Below are positions 12,458-39,501 of a DNA stretch of 42,324 bases, piece after piece (within the stretch, counting starts at the first letter, position 1; every line of letters begins with the position of its first letter). The position numbers and the translations under genes are program-made. Origin of the DNA: an uncultured Robiginitomaculum sp. (GTDB lineage: Bacteria; Pseudomonadota; Alphaproteobacteria; Caulobacterales; Maricaulaceae); contig CALLVD010000034.1 in NCBI GenBank assembly GCA_938010385.1, positions 1 to 42,324 on the forward strand, given 5' to 3'. The notes under the pieces are model-generated. The model saw only the letters and a program-made list of their open reading frames with translations, did not search any database and was not told where the DNA came from.

Positions 12458-13672
12458 CTATTGGGTGATTTCGAAATCAAAGCCTTTGCCTTTTGCTTGG
12501 CGCTTAACTGCATCGACCATGACATTGTCGAGCGTTCTAGTCTTTGCCATATCTTTGCGCTTATCGGCGACAAAGCGCTCGCGCTTACTTTCCAGCGTTT
12601 TTATCTCAGCTTGAATGGCTTGGCGCTCCGCTGCCTTTTCTTCGATAAAGGCTTTGCGGGCCTGCGCGTCCATGCCTTTCATGGCATCCGGCAATTCAGA
12701 ATCGTCCATGTTGATAATCGCTTCCGGCGCGGCGGCGTAGCCGTCGACCACATCCCAGCTCTCATTTTTATAAAGCGATGAGGATTTGGACTTCACCCGC
12801 TCCATTGCGCTCTTTTTTGAATAGCTTGATGCATTACTATCTTGGGCCACTTGCCGGGCGGCTTTTTGTGCGCCCATTGCGCCATAGCCCATATAGGTAG
12901 AATTGAGGCGGCGATTTAAATCGAGAATTTGATCATCATAAGGGCTATCAATATGGACTGATTTCACGTCCTGATCGATGGTCATATAAATACCGCCGCT
13001 GCATTCCGCGCCGTCTTTCCATTTACCGCGTATGCCCTTTTGCGAGTTCCCGCAATGAATGGTGTCAATCGTGACTCCGCTGCGGCGGGCGTGCTCACAG
13101 GCGGTTCGGTAGCTGACAGGGCCCTGCGTAAACGGCTCATTACCCGCAATGATAATCAGCTTTAAGTCATCGTCAAACTTGCTCCATTCCAGCTCTTTGA
13201 GCGCGGTATCAATGACCTGCCCTGCATGCTCGCTGCCGCCATTTGTGGTCAGCTTAAAAAGCGCCTCAGAGACGCTGTCCAGATCAGAGGTGAGCGGGAG
13301 AACCTGACGGATATAGCCTTTGGATATAGACAGGCTGTCATTGCCGTATTCATACAGCGCCAATTCCAAATGCGGGGCATGGCCGTCGCGGCGCGCCTCG
13401 GACAGTTCATTGACCAGCGACCATAATTGCGATTTTGCCTGATTAATCAGCCCGTCCATGGAATTACTTGTGTCGAGCAAAAGGGCCACCTGGATATAAT
13501 GGGCGTCCCGATTGGCCGGCGCAACGACCGGCGGACGGTCGGGTTTGGGCAAGGGATAGGGCCTCATCACGGTCGTTTCCGATGTGGGTTGCGGCCCGGC
13601 ATGCGCGCTGACGGCCCCCATAGCGACGCTAGCGCACAGCGCCGCTTTGAATAATCCGCGGATAAATGTCAT
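12458..13672 (-). CDS. exported von Willebrand factor A-domain protein
   Basis: A 404-residue protein with a signal peptide (MTFIRGLFKAALCASVAMGA, cleavage near AHA-G at 25) and a VWA domain at about 58-250. The metal-ion-dependent adhesion site is present: DTSNS (67-71), a Thr at 142/143 in LTTNGGSEH, and an Asp-less IIIAGNEPFTQGP strand. The C-terminal third is Lys/Arg/Glu-rich and probably helical (EEKAAERQAIQAEIKTLESK), likely a coiled coil. VWA proteins usually mediate Mg-dependent protein contacts, and no partner gene (MoxR, CoxE, TonB) is adjacent. It shares the 149-bp upstream region with the divergent ArsR-methyltransferase gene. The function is unknown. Confidence 0.85.
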   Translation of the reverse strand: MTFIRGLFKAALCASVAMGAVSAHAGPQPTSETTVMRPYPLPKPDRPPVVAPANRDAHYIQVALLLDTSNSMDGLINQAKSQLWSLVNELSEARRDGHAPHLELALYEYGNDSLSISKGYIRQVLPLTSDLDSVSEALFKLTTNGGSEHAGQVIDTALKELEWSKFDDDLKLIIIAGNEPFTQGPVSYRTACEHARRSGVTIDTIHCGNSQKGIRGKWKDGAECSGGIYMTIDQDVKSVHIDSPYDDQILDLNRRLNSTYMGYGAMGAQKAARQVAQDSNASSYSKKSAMERVKSKSSSLYKNESWDVVDGYAAAPEAIINMDDSELPDAMKGMDAQARKAFIEEKAAERQAIQAEIKTLESKRERFVADKRKDMAKTRTLDNVMVDAVKRQAKGKGFDFEITQ

Positions 13673-13763
13673 AATTCCCTCCTGATGTTATGGCTTGTTT
13701 GCAAATGGCAAGGCGAATAAGGCAGGTTTAAGGCGATAACTGCTATTTAGCCGGCCCAATAAA

Positions 13764-13787
13764 ATAAAGATATAATGATTTCTTTAT
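13764..13787. promoter_or_regulatory. candidate ArsR-family operator upstream of the ArsR-methyltransferase/metF operon
   Basis: ATAAAGA (13764-13770) and its exact complement TCTTTAT (13781-13787) are separated by ten AT-rich bases, the size of ArsR-family operators. It lies 34 bp before the ArsR-type start codon, so autoregulation of this gene and metF is likely. Two adjacent 9-nt repeats, ATAGCTGTG and ATAACTGTG, follow at about 13800-13817. Confidence 0.6.
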
Positions 13788-13821
13788 ATACATTGGCTGA
13801 TAGCTGTGATAACTGTGGCTT

Positions 13822-14778
13822 ATGGAAAACATTGCGACAGCCTTAAAAGCCCTCGGTCACCCGGAACGCCTGCGTATTTTGGCGCTGCTGTCGCGCGGTG
13901 ATTTAACGGTCAGTGAATTGACTCAAATACTGGGTCTGTCCCAACCGCGCGTCACGCAATATATTAAAACATTGGAATCCGCGGGCATTATTGAGCGCCT
14001 GAAAGAAGGCAGCTGGGTCTTCTCACGCCTGCGCCGCGGCAATGAAGTCATCACAGCCTTGGTGGCCACCACGCTGTCCGCCCTGCCCGCCGATGACAAA
14101 GACATCGCTTCGGATGCGCGCCGATTAACCGATGTGCGCGACGCCCGCGCCCAAGCGGCACAAGCCTTCTTTGCCCGCGTCGCCAATGATACGGAACACC
14201 CGGGATCTGAATATCTGCCGCGCGGCGATATAGAGACCCGCATGCGCGAGCTCGCCGGAGACGGGCCGTTTGACTATATGGTCGATTTAGGCACAGGCAC
14301 GGGGCGCATTTTAGAGATATTCGCTGACAGAACAGCGCGCGGCTCCGGCATTGACAGCAGTCCGGAAATGCTGCGTGTGGCGCGGCACAACCTTGAAGGC
14401 GATCATTTGCGTCACCTGACCGTTCGCCAAGGCGACCTGAACGCAACGCCGCTTGATACCGGCATTGCTGACTTTGTGACGCTGCACCAAGTCTTGCACT
14501 ATTTAGACAGGCCGGGCGACGCAATCCGCGAAGCTTCCAGATTGTTACAGCCCGGGGGGCGGCTTTTGATTGTCGATTTCGACAGCCATGACCGCGAAGA
14601 TTATCGCGATAAATTTGCCCACAGACGGCTTGGGTTTACCGACGGCGAGATTGCCGGCTGGATGGCCGATGTCGGCATTGATTTGACCGAAACCCGCAGC
14701 GAAATCCCGGCCGGAAACAGCCCCGCCGTCAAGCTTTGGCTGGGCCAAGCCCGGCGCACACAAAGGAACTTAGCATGA
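13822..14778 (+). CDS. ArsR-family regulator fused to a SAM-dependent methyltransferase domain (SahR-like)
   Basis: Cytosolic protein of 318 residues. Residues 1-85 form an ArsR winged helix (LKALGHPERLRILALLSRGD, then the recognition region SQPRVTQYIKTLESAGII) without the arsenic/metal cysteine motif. Residues 130-318 form a class I methyltransferase with the SAM loop VDLGTGTGRILEIF (154-167), GIDSSPEML (176-184) and LLQPGGRLLIVDF (241-253). Such fusions commonly sit beside methionine-cycle genes in alphaproteobacteria, and ArsR-family SahR is known to control ahcY, metF, metH and metK in response to S-adenosylhomocysteine. Here the stop overlaps the metF start (ATGA). I infer a regulator sensing SAM or SAH through its methyltransferase domain. 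True methyltransferase activity cannot be excluded. Confidence 0.85.
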   Translation: MENIATALKALGHPERLRILALLSRGDLTVSELTQILGLSQPRVTQYIKTLESAGIIERLKEGSWVFSRLRRGNEVITALVATTLSALPADDKDIASDARRLTDVRDARAQAAQAFFARVANDTEHPGSEYLPRGDIETRMRELAGDGPFDYMVDLGTGTGRILEIFADRTARGSGIDSSPEMLRVARHNLEGDHLRHLTVRQGDLNATPLDTGIADFVTLHQVLHYLDRPGDAIREASRLLQPGGRLLIVDFDSHDREDYRDKFAHRRLGFTDGEIAGWMADVGIDLTETRSEIPAGNSPAVKLWLGQARRTQRNLA

Positions 14779-15644
14779 GCGACATCAATATCAGCTATGA
14801 GTTTTTTCCGCCCAAATCTGAAGTCTCTTCGCGCAATTTGCTCAGCGTTGCCAAGAAGCTGAAACGGTTTGATCCGGCGTTTGTTTCCGTTACCTATGGC
14901 GCCGGCGGCACAACACAGGCGCGCACATTTGATGCGGTAAAAGACATAGCGCAGGCCGGCCTTAAAACGGCGGCGCACTTAACCTGTGTGGACGCAACGC
15001 AAGCCGAAATTGACGCGATTGTTGACGGTTATTACGACGCCGGCATCCGCAATATTGTTGCCCTGCGCGGTGACAGTCCCAACGGCATTGATAAAGCCTA
15101 TACCCCGACACCCGGCGGATATGCCTATGGCTCTGATCTGGTCGCCGGGATTAAATCGCGCCACGCCGATATGGATGTTTCTGTCAGCGCTTATCCCGAA
15201 CGTCACCCAGAAAGCGGTCACTGGGATGCAGAGATTGATAATTTAAAGCGTAAAGTCGATGCCGGAGCTGACCGCGCAATCACGCAATATTTTTTCAAGG
15301 CCGACACGTTTTTAAGCTTTGTTGATAAAGTCCGCGCGGCCGGCGTGGACCTTCCGATTGTGCCGGGCATTATGCTCCAGCCCAATTTTGAAGGCCTATG
15401 CAATATGAGCGCAAAGTGCGGGGTCGCCGTGCCGCCGGACGTCAGAGCGCGTTTTGACCGCGCCGCAGGCGATAAAGACGCGCTGAAAGATGAAACAACA
15501 GCCTTTGCGACCGGTCTTATTGAAGATTTGAAAGCCGGCGGCGTGAAAGACTTCCACCTCTATACGCTTAACAAATCAGCGATAGCGTCGACCGTAACCC
15601 GCGCGATTACGCCTGCGGCCCGCCGCGCAACACAAGCCGCTTAG
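14775..15644 (+). CDS. metF: 5,10-methylenetetrahydrofolate reductase
   Basis: Reduces methylene-THF to 5-methyl-THF with FAD, supplying the methyl group for methionine synthesis. The protein has 289 residues, a normal length. It shows YEFFPPK (8-14, with the catalytic Glu), SVTYGAGGTTQ, HLTCVD, ALRGDSP, YPERHPES and QYFFKADTFLSF. The start at 14775 overlaps the regulator's stop by four bases and has AGGA eight bases upstream. A longer frame from 14736 lies inside the regulator and is rejected. Its TAG interlocks with the stop of the convergent AsmA-like gene (TTAG), with no terminator between them. Confidence 0.95.
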   Translation: MSDINISYEFFPPKSEVSSRNLLSVAKKLKRFDPAFVSVTYGAGGTTQARTFDAVKDIAQAGLKTAAHLTCVDATQAEIDAIVDGYYDAGIRNIVALRGDSPNGIDKAYTPTPGGYAYGSDLVAGIKSRHADMDVSVSAYPERHPESGHWDAEIDNLKRKVDAGADRAITQYFFKADTFLSFVDKVRAAGVDLPIVPGIMLQPNFEGLCNMSAKCGVAVPPDVRARFDRAAGDKDALKDETTAFATGLIEDLKAGGVKDFHLYTLNKSAIASTVTRAITPAARRATQAA

Positions 15645-33971: not shown

Positions 33972-34670
33972 ATGACGACACACGCAGAAAAATCAGGACG
34001 GCGCGACACCCATCTCTTGGTCGTGGACGATGATGACCGCATTCGCGACCTGCTGAAACGCTATCTGGCCAAGCAAGGCTTTCGGGTCAGCGCCGCCGCC
34101 GATGCCGCGGATGCCCGCCGCTTGATGAAAACTCTGGCCTTTGATTGCCTGATCCTTGACGTGATGATGCCGGGCGAGACAGGGTTTGAGCTGACCGAGA
34201 GCCTGCGCGCGCGCTCTGACGTTCCGATTATTTTGCTGACCGCAAAAGGCGAGGCCGGCAGCCGGATTGAAGGCTTAAAACTGGGCGCGGATGATTATAT
34301 GCCCAAACCGTTTGAGCCGGAGGAATTGGTCCTGCGAATCGAAGCCATATTGCGCCGCGTTCCGGACAGCGCAGCTGATCAAGTCTTGACCTTTGGCCCT
34401 TGGGAATTTGACGCGCTGCGAGGCGATTTGACCCGCGCGGGCAACCCAGAAAAATTGACATCCGGAGAAACGGCCCTGCTGTCAACACTGGCCGGGCGGG
34501 TCGGCGTGCCGATTACCCGCCACGTTCTGGCCGAAGCGATCGGGGCAAAATCAGAGCGGGCCGTGGATGTTCAGGTGACGCGCCTGCGCCGCAAAATCGA
34601 GCGCGACAGCGCGGAGCCGGAATTTGTCCTGACCGTGCGGGGCAAGGGCTACAAGCTGGTGGCGGATTAG
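33972..34670 (+). CDS. OmpR/PetR-like two-component response regulator
   Basis: A 232-residue DNA-binding regulator. The receiver domain spans about 12-125, with acidic residues D19-D21, the phosphorylation site D63 (LILDVMMPG), T90 and K112 (DDYMPKPF), all intact. A winged-helix output domain spans about 140-230 (LTSGETALLSTLAGRVGVPI, VDVQVTRLRRKIERD, VRGKGYKLV). No histidine kinase is in the window, so it may be an orphan. In several Rhodobacterales a MarR-type gene (petP) lies between the aminotransferase and this regulator (petR); here it is missing. Its TAG interlocks with the stop of the convergent regulator gene (TTAG). Confidence 0.93.
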   Translation: MTTHAEKSGRRDTHLLVVDDDDRIRDLLKRYLAKQGFRVSAAADAADARRLMKTLAFDCLILDVMMPGETGFELTESLRARSDVPIILLTAKGEAGSRIEGLKLGADDYMPKPFEPEELVLRIEAILRRVPDSAADQVLTFGPWEFDALRGDLTRAGNPEKLTSGETALLSTLAGRVGVPITRHVLAEAIGAKSERAVDVQVTRLRRKIERDSAEPEFVLTVRGKGYKLVAD

Positions 34671-36088
34671 ACCTCAAACCGGAAAATACTCATGCCCCGC
34701 GCGCGTTCATCAAAGGTAAGCTTGCGGTTGAGCGGTGCATGGGCACGCGATCGGCAGTTTTCCCGCTCGCATAAATGACAATTAATCCCAATGGGCGTCG
34801 GGCGGACTGTGTCTAAATTCAGGCCTTCGGCATAAACTAATCGCGGCGCATAGGCGATATCACAGCCCAGACCGATGGCCAGTTTTTGCGCCTGCCGCCC
34901 GAACGCGCCGCCGGCGCGGGTCACGGTTCTGGCAACAGAGAAATAGGTCGTCTCATCCGGCATTTGAATAATCTGCGTGCGCACAGACTCAGGGCCGGCA
35001 AAGACGTCATGAATATTCCAAAGCGGGCACGCCCCGCCAAAGTCGGAAAAATGAAACCGGCCGGCAGAGAACCGCTTGGATACATTGCCGGCCGTATCAA
35101 TGCGCACAAAGAAAAACGGAATGCCCCGCGCATCCGGTTTTTGCAAGGTTGTCAGCCGGTGCGCGGTTTGCTCAAAACTTGTCGCAAACCGGTTGGACAG
35201 CAGGTCAATATCGTAACGGCAGCTTTCCGCCTCTTTCAAAAATTTTGCGTAAGGCATCAGCACGGCGGCCGCGAAATAATTGGCCAGCGAGGTTCGGCAC
35301 AGCCGCTCGGCTTCGCGCGTCTCAAAACCGGCCTGCGCAATAACCGCGTCAATCAAATCCCGATGCTCCAGCATGCCGATTTGATAAGCCATTTGAAACA
35401 CCCGGCCGGACGCCGGCATCAATTCAGAAATATTGATACGCTTGGAATGGCGATCAAAATAGCGCAGCATTTCGGGCATGACGGATATCGGCACAACGCG
35501 AACCGTCAGGCCGTGATCGTTTTTCAGGCGCAGCGTTAAAGCGGTCGACAGACCGGTGCCGGATGTCGCTAATTGCGCTGACAGCGCTTCTGCCGCGCTG
35601 TCGATATCGGGGAAGAAATTACGCCGGCTTTGCAAAAACGTGCGAACCGTTTCGGTCGCTTGCGTAGCCGGGTCCAGCAGGCTGTCAGCGTCAGGACTTG
35701 TTCCGTCCGACAGAGACGCCCGGCGGTAGTTTTTGTAAAGCCGCAAAACCGCCTGCCCTAATTCGGGGTTTATACCGACAATGTCTTCCAAATCCTGACG
35801 CGACACAGTGCCGGCGCCAATGGCCGGGTCGCGCATAGCGTCATGCAGATCGGCCACTAAAGCTGCGTCGCTGCGCCCGGAAAACTCGGCCATGTCAAAA
35901 TCGTAAACTCCGGACAGGCGCAGCAGCACCTTTGCGCTCATCGGGCGCTGATTACGCTCAATGAGGTTTAAGTAAGATGTGGAGATATCCAAATCCTGCG
36001 CCATGCGGGCTTGGGTCAGTCCCAAAGTTTGCCGCAAACGCCGCAAACGCGGCCCAATCATCAGTTTTTGTCCGGCAGATTTTGTCAT
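34667..36088 (-). CDS. RamB/PrpR-like short-chain fatty acyl regulator (XRE, IrrE-like, DUF2083)
   Basis: A 473-residue transcription factor. An XRE helix-turn-helix at about 11-66 (LRRLRQTLGLTQARMAQDLD, TSYLNLIERNQRPM) is followed by a helical region, an IrrE-like domain around 190-320 without a complete HEXXH, and a C-terminal DUF2083 domain. This has cysteines C437, C440 and C445 (CHLCERENC) and a further C354 (GGACPLWNIH). The CX2CX4C spacing matches that reported, as I recall, for the Fe-S site of mycobacterial PrpR. Family members sense acyl-CoA levels and control acetate or propionate genes; RamB acts on aceA/aceB in Corynebacterium. It is divergent from malate synthase and isocitrate lyase, so it is the probable regulator of the glyoxylate shunt here. 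Confidence 0.88.
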   Translation of the reverse strand: MTKSAGQKLMIGPRLRRLRQTLGLTQARMAQDLDISTSYLNLIERNQRPMSAKVLLRLSGVYDFDMAEFSGRSDAALVADLHDAMRDPAIGAGTVSRQDLEDIVGINPELGQAVLRLYKNYRRASLSDGTSPDADSLLDPATQATETVRTFLQSRRNFFPDIDSAAEALSAQLATSGTGLSTALTLRLKNDHGLTVRVVPISVMPEMLRYFDRHSKRINISELMPASGRVFQMAYQIGMLEHRDLIDAVIAQAGFETREAERLCRTSLANYFAAAVLMPYAKFLKEAESCRYDIDLLSNRFATSFEQTAHRLTTLQKPDARGIPFFFVRIDTAGNVSKRFSAGRFHFSDFGGACPLWNIHDVFAGPESVRTQIIQMPDETTYFSVARTVTRAGGAFGRQAQKLAIGLGCDIAYAPRLVYAEGLNLDTVRPTPIGINCHLCERENCRSRAHAPLNRKLTFDERARGMSIFRFEV

Positions 36089-36097
36089 ATCTATTTG

Positions 36098-36120
36098 TTT
36101 ACATAATTTACAAGTTTACA
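36098..36120. promoter_or_regulatory. three TTTACA repeats in the glyoxylate regulator/malate synthase intergenic region
   Basis: TTTACA occurs at 36098, 36107 and 36115, and CTTGTAAC at 36178-36185 is a near-inverted copy of the second site with its flank (TTTACAAG). The two groups lie on either side of the divergent promoter region, so they are plausible binding sites for the RamB/PrpR-like protein. They resemble, but do not equal, the Corynebacterium RamB core TTTGCAAA. Confidence 0.45.
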
Positions 36121-36231
36121 CAAGTGACAATGACTTAGCGGACTTATGCACCTCTAAAAACATGACAAAGGTGATTTCTTGTAACATTTGTATGCCACCG
36201 AATAACGGCACACACTTTACAGGAGACTATC

Positions 36232-37869
36232 ATGGCCGAAGCAGACCCGAATTTGATCCCCCGCCACCGCGTCTTGGCGAAAGTTACAGGAAAGATGCAG
36301 GCAGGATATGACACTGTCTTAACGCCGGATGCGCTTTTGTTTCTGGCCGACCTTGAGCGCAGGTTCGGGCGCACGCGCCGCAATCTGCTCGAAGACCGCG
36401 CGGACCGCCAAGACCGCATCGACCATGGCGAGCTTCCGGGCTTTTTGCCGGAAACGGCTCATGTGCGAAATTCCATGTGGGAAGTCGCCCCTATCCCGGC
36501 GGCGCTGCAAGATCGCCGCGTCGAGATTACCGGACCCGTTGACCGCAAAATGATGATCAATGCGCTTAACAGCGGCGCAAAAATGTTCATGGCGGATTTC
36601 GAAGATGCCTCGTCCCCGACCTTTGCCAATATGATTGAGGGCCAGATGAACATGCGTGATTATGCGCGCGGGACGCTGGCGCATGAGGATAAAGCCCGCG
36701 GCAAGTCCTACGCCCTGAACGCTGACACAGCGACCATGTTGGTGCGTCCGCGCGGCTGGCATTTGACCGAGGATAATATCACCGTCGACGGCAAGCCTAT
36801 GTCCGCGAGCCTGGTCGATTTCGGCCTGCATATTTTTCACAACGGCAAAATGCTGACCGAGAGCGGGACAGGGCCTTTCTACTACCTCCCGAAATTGGAA
36901 AGCCACCGCGAAGCGCGTCTTTGGAATGATGTCTTTAATTTCGCGCAAGTCATTGTCGGCATTCCGAACGGCACCATCAAAGCCACGGTTTTGATTGAAA
37001 CTTTGCCGGCGGCGTTCGAAATGGACGAGATATTATATGAGCTGAAAAACCATATCAGCGGCCTGAATTGCGGGCGCTGGGATTATATCTTCAGCTACAT
37101 CAAGACCCTGCGTAATCACAGCCAATACATGCTCCCCGACAGGGCGCAGGTGGGCATGGACCGCGCATTCTTAAATGCATACTCGCTCAAGCTTATCGAG
37201 ACCTGCCATCGCCGCCGCGCCCACGCTATGGGCGGCATGGCGGCGCAAATCCCGGTCAAGGGTGATGAGGCCGCCAATAAAGCGGCCTTTGCAAAAGTGG
37301 CGGCGGACAAGCTGCGCGAAGTTCGCGCCGGTCATGACGGCACATGGGTCGCGCATCCGGATTTGGTTGCGCCGGCTATGGACGTGTTTAACGCGGAAAT
37401 GCCCGGCAAGCACCAAATGCTGCGCCAACAGGTTATGCCGCGCATCACCGAAGGCTCGCTGCTGACCCCGCATACGGGAACGGCAACCGAAGCCGGCCTG
37501 CGGACCAACATCTCTGTCGGGATTGAATATATCGCAGCTTGGCTGCAGGGGCGCGGCGCCGTGCCTATTCACAATCTGATGGAAGATGCGGCCACGGCGG
37601 AAATTTCGCGCAGCCAAGTCTGGCAATGGCTGCGTCACGGCCAGACCATCGTCAAAGCAGACGGCACGACCACAAAAATGAGCACAGCTTATTTCGAGGC
37701 CGTTTTGGAAGACGAAATGGACGCCATCAAAGCCCGCACCGGCGATGATTTCGCTGCGGGGCATTATCAAAAGGCTGCTGACATTTTCACCAAGACGGCG
37801 ACATCCGTCGAATTTGTCGACTTCCTGACCCTGCCCGCCTATCGCGAGCTTCAAAAAATTCACGCTTAA
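36232..37869 (+). CDS. aceB: malate synthase A
   Basis: Condenses glyoxylate with acetyl-CoA to malate, the second glyoxylate-shunt enzyme. The 545 residues fit the malate synthase A (AceB) type, not the 720-residue G type. Key blocks are AKMFMADFEDASSPTFANMI, LVRPRGWHLTEDNI, the family signature YYLPKLESHREARLWNDVF, ATVLIETLPAAFEMDEILYE, GLNCGRWDYIFSYIKTLRN and, near the C-terminus, EDAATAEISRSQVWQW. AGGAG lies before the ATG. Isocitrate lyase follows after 21 bases, and both share the terminator at 39530. Confidence 0.96.
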   Translation: MAEADPNLIPRHRVLAKVTGKMQAGYDTVLTPDALLFLADLERRFGRTRRNLLEDRADRQDRIDHGELPGFLPETAHVRNSMWEVAPIPAALQDRRVEITGPVDRKMMINALNSGAKMFMADFEDASSPTFANMIEGQMNMRDYARGTLAHEDKARGKSYALNADTATMLVRPRGWHLTEDNITVDGKPMSASLVDFGLHIFHNGKMLTESGTGPFYYLPKLESHREARLWNDVFNFAQVIVGIPNGTIKATVLIETLPAAFEMDEILYELKNHISGLNCGRWDYIFSYIKTLRNHSQYMLPDRAQVGMDRAFLNAYSLKLIETCHRRRAHAMGGMAAQIPVKGDEAANKAAFAKVAADKLREVRAGHDGTWVAHPDLVAPAMDVFNAEMPGKHQMLRQQVMPRITEGSLLTPHTGTATEAGLRTNISVGIEYIAAWLQGRGAVPIHNLMEDAATAEISRSQVWQWLRHGQTIVKADGTTTKMSTAYFEAVLEDEMDAIKARTGDDFAAGHYQKAADIFTKTATSVEFVDFLTLPAYRELQKIHA

Positions 37870-37890
37870 AATTCAAATACGGAGACTATT

Positions 37891-39501
37891 ATGACCAAAC
37901 AAACTTACAGCGAAATTCGCACGCAGCTACTAAAACGCTACCCGGACGGACAAACGCGCAGCGGCGTTCAGATTGATGACATGGTGCAATTGCGCCTGCA
38001 AAACACCTATAATACCCATCTGGATATTGCCCGCGATATGGCCGGCGTCATGCGCGCCGACATGGCCGCCTATGACAAAGACCATCGCCAATCAACGCAA
38101 TCGCTCGGCTGCTGGTCCGGCTTTCACGCGCAGCAAATGATCAAATCGGTCAAGCGCATGAATGGCACAACCAAGGGCGCCTATGTCTATCTGTCCGGAT
38201 GGATGGTCGCCGGCCTGCGCAACAGCTTTGGGCATTTGCCGGATCAATCCATGCACGAAAAAACGTCCGTTGTTGATCTCATCCAAGAGATTTACACATC
38301 CCTGCGCCAGGCCGATGAAGTCGCGCTGAACGATTTGTTCGCGGCGCTGAAAACAGCGCGCGATACCGGCGGCGATATCGATGCAGCGATTGCGGCGATT
38401 GATAATTTCGAAACCCATGTGGTGCCGATTATTGCCGATATTGACGCGGGCTTCGGTAACGAGCATGCGACTTACCTTTTGTCCAAGCAGATGATTTTGG
38501 CCGGCGCGTGCTGCATCCAGATTGAAAACCAAGTCTCTGACGCCAAACAGTGCGGTCACCAAGACGGCAAAGTTACGGTTCCGCGCGAGGAATTTAATGT
38601 CAAACTCAAAGCCGTGCGCCTTGCCTTTGAAGAGTTGGGCGTGGATGACGGCGTGATCGTCGCGCGCACGGACAGTCTCGGCGCAGGCCTGACGCAAAAG
38701 GTGCCGGTCACAAACGGCGCGGACGGCGCGGCGGAGTACATTAAATGGCTTGAGACTGAAGAGATTACCGCCGCCAATCCTTTGATCGAGGGTGAAGTCG
38801 CCCTGATGCAAGACGGTAAAATCGTGCGTCCGGTCCGCTTGCCTAACGGTCTTTATAAATTCAAAGACGGCACCGGCGAGGACCGCGTTGTGGAAGATTG
38901 CATCAGCAGCTTGACCGAAGGCGGCGCGGATATGCTCTGGATTGAAACAGCGACTCCAAATGTGTCGCGCATTGCCGGCATGGTCAATCGCATCAAGCAG
39001 GTCGTGCCCAATGCAAAGCTGACCTATAATAACTCGCCGTCCTTTAACTGGACCCTGAACCTGCGTCAGCAAGTGCGCGAAGAATGGATTGCCGCCGGCA
39101 CTATTCAGCCGTCCGAATTGCCGGGAGGCATTGAGCTGATGTCATCAAAATATGATAATCAACCGCTGGGTCTTGAGACGGACAAACGATTGGCCGCATT
39201 CCAGACTGATATTTCCCGCGAAGCCGGCGTGTTCCATAACCTCATCACCCTGCCGACCTTCCATATGACGGCCAAGTTTATGGATGATCTGGCCAAGGGC
39301 TATTTCGGCGAGCGTAAGATGGAAGCTTATGTCAACACCATTCAGCGCGAAGAAATTCGCGGCGGCGTGTCGGCGGTGAAACATCAACACGAAGTCGGTT
39401 CTGACCTCGGCGATACATTTAAAGAAATGGTCGCCGGCGAGCGCGCCTTGAAGGCCGGCGGTCACGCCAACACCATGAACCAATTTGATCAGGTCGCATA
39501 A
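37891..39501 (+). CDS. aceA: isocitrate lyase, long (Pseudomonas-type) form
   Basis: Splits isocitrate to succinate and glyoxylate. It has 536 residues, longer than the 434-residue E. coli enzyme and like the 531-residue form of Pseudomonas aeruginosa. The catalytic loop is KQCGH (219-223, C221) where short forms have KKCGH. Other blocks are PIIADIDAGFGNEHATYLLS, CCIQIENQVSDAKQCGHQDG, VIVARTDSLGAGLT, ADMLWIETATPNV and LTYNNSPSFNW. A good GGAG site precedes the ATG. It forms a two-gene operon with aceB under the divergent RamB/PrpR-like regulator. Confidence 0.96.
   Translation: MTKQTYSEIRTQLLKRYPDGQTRSGVQIDDMVQLRLQNTYNTHLDIARDMAGVMRADMAAYDKDHRQSTQSLGCWSGFHAQQMIKSVKRMNGTTKGAYVYLSGWMVAGLRNSFGHLPDQSMHEKTSVVDLIQEIYTSLRQADEVALNDLFAALKTARDTGGDIDAAIAAIDNFETHVVPIIADIDAGFGNEHATYLLSKQMILAGACCIQIENQVSDAKQCGHQDGKVTVPREEFNVKLKAVRLAFEELGVDDGVIVARTDSLGAGLTQKVPVTNGADGAAEYIKWLETEEITAANPLIEGEVALMQDGKIVRPVRLPNGLYKFKDGTGEDRVVEDCISSLTEGGADMLWIETATPNVSRIAGMVNRIKQVVPNAKLTYNNSPSFNWTLNLRQQVREEWIAAGTIQPSELPGGIELMSSKYDNQPLGLETDKRLAAFQTDISREAGVFHNLITLPTFHMTAKFMDDLAKGYFGERKMEAYVNTIQREEIRGGVSAVKHQHEVGSDLGDTFKEMVAGERALKAGGHANTMNQFDQVA

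Follow-up and report, generated by a model that had tools for sequence, protein, structure and literature searches.

Upstream of many metabolic genes stands a regulator whose signal can be guessed from its company, and the contig of an uncultured Robiginitomaculum sp. considered here (GenBank assembly GCA_938010385.1, CALLVD010000034.1, positions 1 to 42,324; this whole stretch of 42,324 nucleotides is called the window) raises such a case. A gene for an ArsR-type DNA-binding domain joined to a methyltransferase domain precedes metF. Which molecule does this protein read, and at which DNA sequence does it act? An earlier inspection of the letters alone, called here the sequence-only reading, had proposed S-adenosylmethionine (SAM) or S-adenosylhomocysteine (SAH) as the signal, a wide-spaced dyad as the operator and SahR, an ArsR-family regulator of the SAM cycle, as the nearest known system. 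By analogy with published descriptions, the gene is probably the alphaproteobacterial SahR itself, an ArsR-family repressor that uses a methyltransferase-type pocket as sensor and is released by SAH; the kind of system and its tie to the SAM cycle had been recognised rightly, while the relation is closer than that of a nearest neighbour. The predicted operator is a 20-bp palindrome at 13770-13789 and not the wide-spaced dyad. The protein itself is of an already known kind, and the new part of the finding is the link to mtgC and the split methionine synthase. Computed in this work were the domain fusion, the operator's register and its conservation, the sites ahead of genes of the regulon and the intact nucleotide-binding motif. 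The elements needed first are the following.

13764..13787, forward strand: dyad of the sequence-only reading; right arm within the operator, left arm in an extra half-site
13770..13789, forward strand: predicted SahR-type operator, 20-bp palindrome ATATAATGATTTCTTTATAT (orthologue upstreams; 29.1 bits; exact core)
13822..14778, forward strand: sahR-type gene (HTH_5 and Methyltransf_11 in Pfam; orthologues in 56 of 61 genomes; AlphaFold model)
14775..15644, forward strand: metF, methylenetetrahydrofolate reductase (PF02219, E 2.9e-86; TIGR00676 above cut-off)

The fusion protein comprises 318 amino acids, with an ArsR winged-helix domain at residues about 1-75 (HTH_5 of Pfam, E 9.7e-13; the ArsR/SmtB-family model NF033788 above cut-off) and a class I SAM methyltransferase domain at residues about 135-312. 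Its gene lies directly ahead of metF, as had been stated before: the TGA of the fusion gene and the ATG of metF share the string ATGA at 14775-14778, a four-base overlap. The AlphaFold model reaches a pLDDT of 90.2 and a pTM of 0.87. Among the structural matches listed, the top ones for the methyltransferase domain are SAM/SAH-dependent methyltransferases, such as 3ofk_B (Z 22.3, rmsd 2.3, 189 aligned) and 1vl5_A (Z 21.9, rmsd 1.9, 177 aligned); a solved structure of a fused protein is not among these matches, an absence which is no test. In an alignment that took in 24 of the 30 best orthologues, residues D155, G157, G159, G161 and D178 of the nucleotide-binding motif are invariant, which bears out the pocket of SAM/SAH type suggested earlier. 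Likewise invariant in these 24 is the stretch HRxLGF, which is altered in more distant orthologues (e.g. HHRLGL or HHRLGM). The claim that metal-binding cysteines are lacking was also confirmed. The window protein contains no cysteine in its whole sequence and so has none of the cysteine ligands which metal-sensing ArsR/SmtB proteins carry in the DNA-binding domain, and within the first 110 residues only one of the 24 aligned orthologues has a cysteine (C53 of L029). Fusion orthologues occur in 56 of the 61 genomes searched, the window's own counted in.

The dyad taken for the operator by the sequence-only reading, ATAAAGA-N10-TCTTTAT, is exact at its place, with 34 bp between its end and the ATG at 13822. 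As an operator it had to be given up, since the upstream regions of the orthologues show a 20-bp palindrome in another register. Agreement with the 20-mer ATATAAAGATATCTTTATAT at no fewer than 15 of the 20 positions is seen upstream of 27 among the 30 best orthologues, and metF is the next gene in 26 of the 30. The window operator ATATAATGATTTCTTTATAT agrees with this consensus at 18 of 20 positions. In a second set of 32 named loci, hand-picked for breadth from 80 and sharing some contigs with the 30-orthologue set, an operator at 16 or more of the 20 positions precedes 30 genes, and metF follows in 27; these loci span Hellea, Robiginitomaculum, Mesorhizobium, Brucella, Methylobacterium and others. 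A scoring matrix trained on 26 other loci, with the window and L022, L023 and L029 left out, gave 29.1 bits for 13770-13789 and 7.5 bits for the runner-up place in the window. Of 10^8 random windows, a single one came to 21.2 bits; a score of 25 bits was not attained by any, with the same result for two base compositions. The dyad, allowing up to two mismatches, occurs at 15 places in the own genome compared with 7 for the reversed control; because of this mild enrichment it is weak evidence as drawn, and the in-register 20-mer, with its conservation and score, was preferred to it as operator.

Three orthologues in the same family (L022, L023 and L029) show neither an operator within 200 bp nor metF within 1.2 kb downstream; there the fusion gene may have moved away from metF.

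The distribution of the site among genomes follows that of the fusion gene. A site within two mismatches is present in 51 of the 61 genomes, with none for the reversed control; it is found in 50 of 56 fusion-bearing and in 1 of 5 fusion-less genomes (Fisher p 0.0018, with relatedness not corrected for). The lone fusion-less genome with a site (G007) has it before ahcY, and since its assembly consists of 610 contigs the fusion gene may be merely missing from the assembly. The exact core ATATAA-N8-TTATAT occurs 2 to 4 times in each of six fusion-bearing genomes and not at all in the complete fusion-less genomes G016, G025 and G031; the reversed control gave one hit over all nine.

The genes behind these sites are those of a SAM-cycle regulon. 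Ten genomes searched at three mismatches yielded 21 distinct sites, 19 of them before SAM-cycle or methionine genes: sahR-metF (8), ahcY-metK (3), metK (2), mtgC (2), and metH, metF-metH, hom and mtgE (1 each). One of the ten, G031, has neither the fusion nor a site. The sequence-only reading had looked to ahcY, metH and metK for further copies of its motif, and with the 20-bp palindrome such sites were indeed found in relatives: before ahcY-metK in G005, a complete genome of the window's genus, before metH in G013 and before metK in G028 and G033. In the matrix scan ahcY is preceded by a site in 6 of 8 genomes examined and metK in the other two; metK comes after ahcY in G005, G006, G013 and G032. 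Two of the 21 sites remain unexplained, one at the start of another gene (G006, C1:925147) and one inside a coding frame (G023, C35:2601), as does an exact core inside a coding frame of G005 (C1:126238, 11.8 bits).

Two single sites deserve a separate mention. An operator with three mismatches (G033, C7:359906; L062) stands before the gene of a homoserine dehydrogenase; behind it comes an alpha/beta-hydrolase gene, which may be metX. The arrangement resembles the reported SahR target hom-metX-metB (PMC4239095). Furthermore, an unexplained exact core in G013 (C2:1075680; L257; 17.6 bits) lies ahead of an untyped gene whose product is probably a membrane protein, and no methionine gene was recognised by eye near it.

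These features agree with what has been described for SahR. The alphaproteobacterial SahR belongs to the ArsR family, responds to SAH, binds a 20-bp palindrome and is autoregulated, with sahR, ahcY, metH, metF and metK as core targets (PMC4239095). The window gene shares with it the 20-bp palindromic operator before the own gene, the length as given in PMC4239095, and, in relatives, the core targets. SAH is reported as the effector also in a further study, in which sahR of Ensifer aridi is given with the number 1023, fusion-sized if base pairs are meant (PMC8877191). In B. microti, ahcY, metH, metF and sahR are reported to be acid-induced together (PMC8710502), and Brucella carries the fused gene with operator and metF (L208). 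SamR of the Xanthomonadales is, like SahR, a regulator of methionine genes (PMC4239095). The lineage is known in large part from metagenome assemblies, and the analysis provides a corrected operator and a testable regulon for it.

Several points weigh against the assignment. A good operator is absent upstream of 3 of the 30 best orthologues and 2 of the 32 named loci, and 6 of the 56 fusion-bearing genomes have no site within two mismatches; weaker forms of the site are found in these six (G010, G021 and four others of family f2). The assignment was made against published descriptions of SahR and not against the founding Desulfovibrio SahR sequence. SAH and SAM are not distinguishable from the sequence, and an apparent relative is reported to methylate arsenite, unlike a pure sensor (PMC10190100).

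The effector is the part of the assignment for which another reading survives best, namely that a SahR-type regulator with the same regulon responds to SAM, or to the ratio of SAM to SAH, instead of SAH alone. Pockets of this kind accommodate both molecules, and SAM was suggested as effector of the distant homologue SamR (PMC4239095); nevertheless SAH is the reported effector of SahR (PMC4239095; PMC8877191), and ahcY, the gene for clearing SAH, carries the site in 6 of the 8 relatives examined. We regard a response to SAM as unlikely but worth keeping in mind, and prefer SAH on the grounds of the published work on SahR.

Less probable still is that the protein is an ArsR^M, an arsenite methyltransferase joined to a repressor which couples arsenic methylation and methionine supply. 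The ArsR^M of Brevundimonas sp. M20, published in 2023, is encoded by a fused gene of 960 bp heading a metF-metH operon; it binds its own promoter in gel shifts and is reported to have methyltransferase activity with arsenite (PMC10190100). The window gene is an ArsR-methyltransferase fusion of similar length and likewise heads a metF operon. In a comparison limited to the named positions, shifted by one, seven ArsR^M residues (H223, Q224, H227, Y228, F254, R263 and H268) have their counterparts in H222, Q223, H226, Y227, F253, R262 and H267. However, C134, part of the reported arsenic site, is missing and replaced by P133 in the cysteine-free window protein, P296 corresponds to I295, the 8 upstream regions searched for the Brevundimonas half-motif CTTTATATAAAG do not contain it, and the preference of the sites for SAM-cycle and methionine genes (19 of 21) speaks against this reading. 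ArsR^M appears to be a relative of the window protein. The word SahR does not occur in PMC10190100, and we suggest that the literatures on SahR and on ArsR^M deal with a single protein family. This would have consequences for the claim of arsenite methylation.

Finally, it is hardly credible that the dyad arose by chance in an A+T-rich gap or belongs to a riboswitch or terminator. Its mild enrichment as drawn would agree with such a view; against it, conservation of the 20-mer in register extends across families, the exact core is missing from all three complete fusion-less genomes searched, and no Rfam family reaches threshold in the window or in L053.

The assignment to SahR gains a further aspect from the own genome (assembly of 2.05 Mb, 75% complete). 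There the core regulon site is limited to metF, since this incomplete assembly yielded no ahcY, no metK and no MetH activation domain. The exact core ATATAA-N8-TTATAT has just two occurrences, one in the window and one at C77:19242-19261; allowing one mismatch in the core adds two more places, as against 3 in the reversed control. Matrix scoring covered the window, contig C77 and part of C50, and a pattern search the rest. The C77 site scores 21.2 bits and lies 21 bp upstream of a gene for a B12-binding protein (mtgC), which is followed by genes for DUF1638, DUF5981, MTHFR-family and pterin-binding proteins, a RACo activase and an MTTB methyltransferase. A homocysteine methyltransferase gene is located 13 kb away.

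The surrounding region of C77 (about 6.8-38 kb; L134, L135) can be regarded as an island for glycine betaine demethylation and split methionine synthase; it also holds FTHFS and two sarcosine-oxidase-like frames, the second recognised by eye.

The same parts have been described as a split methionine synthase (PMC5764234) and as a glycine betaine demethylase (PMC12478193). C77 shares with MtgBCDE the MTTB, B12-binding, pterin-binding, homocysteine S-methyltransferase, RACo activase and DUF1638 proteins; it differs by the SahR-type operator before mtgC, and the word SahR occurs in neither paper. Ten genomes bear mtgC, and in seven of them (G000, which is the own genome, G017, G023, G024, G029, G032 and G036) a copy is preceded by a site. 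Where two copies exist (G017, G024 and G032), the site accompanies the copy that adjoins the gene for RACo or MtgD and is missing from the demethylase-island copy. In G000, G023 and G036 the site belongs to the island itself, with FTHFS on one side and mtgC on the other (in G023 FTHFS was recognised by eye); the number of mtgC copies in G023 and G036 is uncertain because of two partial mtgC pieces at contig ends. G031 has mtgC without fusion and without site. Against a role in mtgC control stand G027, which has fusion and mtgC and no site, and G035, in which the island mtgC is without a site and mtgE is preceded by one instead.

On balance we lean towards the view that SahR of this lineage controls MtgC, the methyl carrier common to methionine synthesis and glycine betaine demethylation. 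The operator would follow the mtgC copy serving methionine synthesis, and SAH would set the corrinoid protein that is open to both routes. Control of mtgC by SahR is not reported in the literature searched, and neither mtgC nor mtgE is among the SahR targets named in the text of PMC4239095, its Table S2 aside; sites before both genes would be additions of this clade. A tie between SAH levels and methionine synthesis by a split B12 enzyme is proposed on these grounds.

Immediately next to the operator a further element is found.

13762..13769, forward strand: extra tandem half-site AAATAAAG, 7/8 to ATATAAAG, directly upstream of the operator

It adjoins the left end of the operator and contains most of the left arm of the former dyad. 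For this element and for the promoter, 15 loci were chosen from the closest relatives. The eight bases upstream of the operator fit ATATAAAG at 6 or more positions in 12 of the 15, compared with a background of 0.67% among 3,150 8-mers, while a half-site downstream of the operator (reverse strand) was matched in one of the 15 only. The second operator of the own genome, on C77, carries the half-site at 8/8; among 14 other operators listed beside it, 2 have it at 6 or more of 8 positions. The conservation is owed in part to shared ancestry. In comparison with SahR the tandem half-site before the operator is an addition of this clade, and it could give the dimer a second, overlapping register.

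The position of the operator relative to the promoter was derived from the same 15 loci.

13807..13815, forward strand: putative extended -10 element TGATAACTG, conserved positions in 15 loci

T and A at -12 and -11 are each found in 14 of the 15 loci, T and G at -15 and -14 each in 12, and the operator-to-ATG distance amounts to 31 or 32 throughout. The last 20 bases before the ATG contain none of three Shine-Dalgarno words in any of these loci. The pattern would fit an extended -10 element and a leaderless transcript; given the putative -10 at 13807-13815, this transcript would start at or next to the ATG, and the -35 region would then be covered by the operator. In Caulobacter such leaderless messages are frequent, numbering 375 (PMC4117421). 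Another promoter, whose -10 would fall within the operator (TATAAT, 13771-13776), was considered and rejected: the hexamer varies in relatives (TATAAC, TATAAG, TATAAA), and no good -35 was seen by eye, while TGnTA just upstream of the ATG is conserved.

From these data we infer repression, SAH as effector, binding as a dimer and the position of the promoter, which may be joined to the following model. At low SAH a dimer would occupy 13770-13789, thereby covering the -35 region of the sahR promoter, and keep the sahR-metF unit repressed. SAH, the product of SAM-dependent methylations, would on rising fill the pocket, and the protein would leave the DNA. The release would allow expression of metF here and, at the regulon's other sites, of ahcY, metK and methionine synthase, by which SAH would be cleared and SAM rebuilt. 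In the own genome the regulon would extend to mtgC, the corrinoid protein of the split methionine synthase.

Two neighbouring features of the window may be added. The gene divergent from sahR, 149 bp off (12458-13672, minus strand), has no Pfam match at E 1e-8 and looks by eye like one for a secreted von Willebrand-type protein. Farther downstream, at 34667-39501, a gene for a helix-turn-helix regulator lies beside those of malate synthase and isocitrate lyase and, judged by eye, likely encodes a regulator of the glyoxylate cycle.
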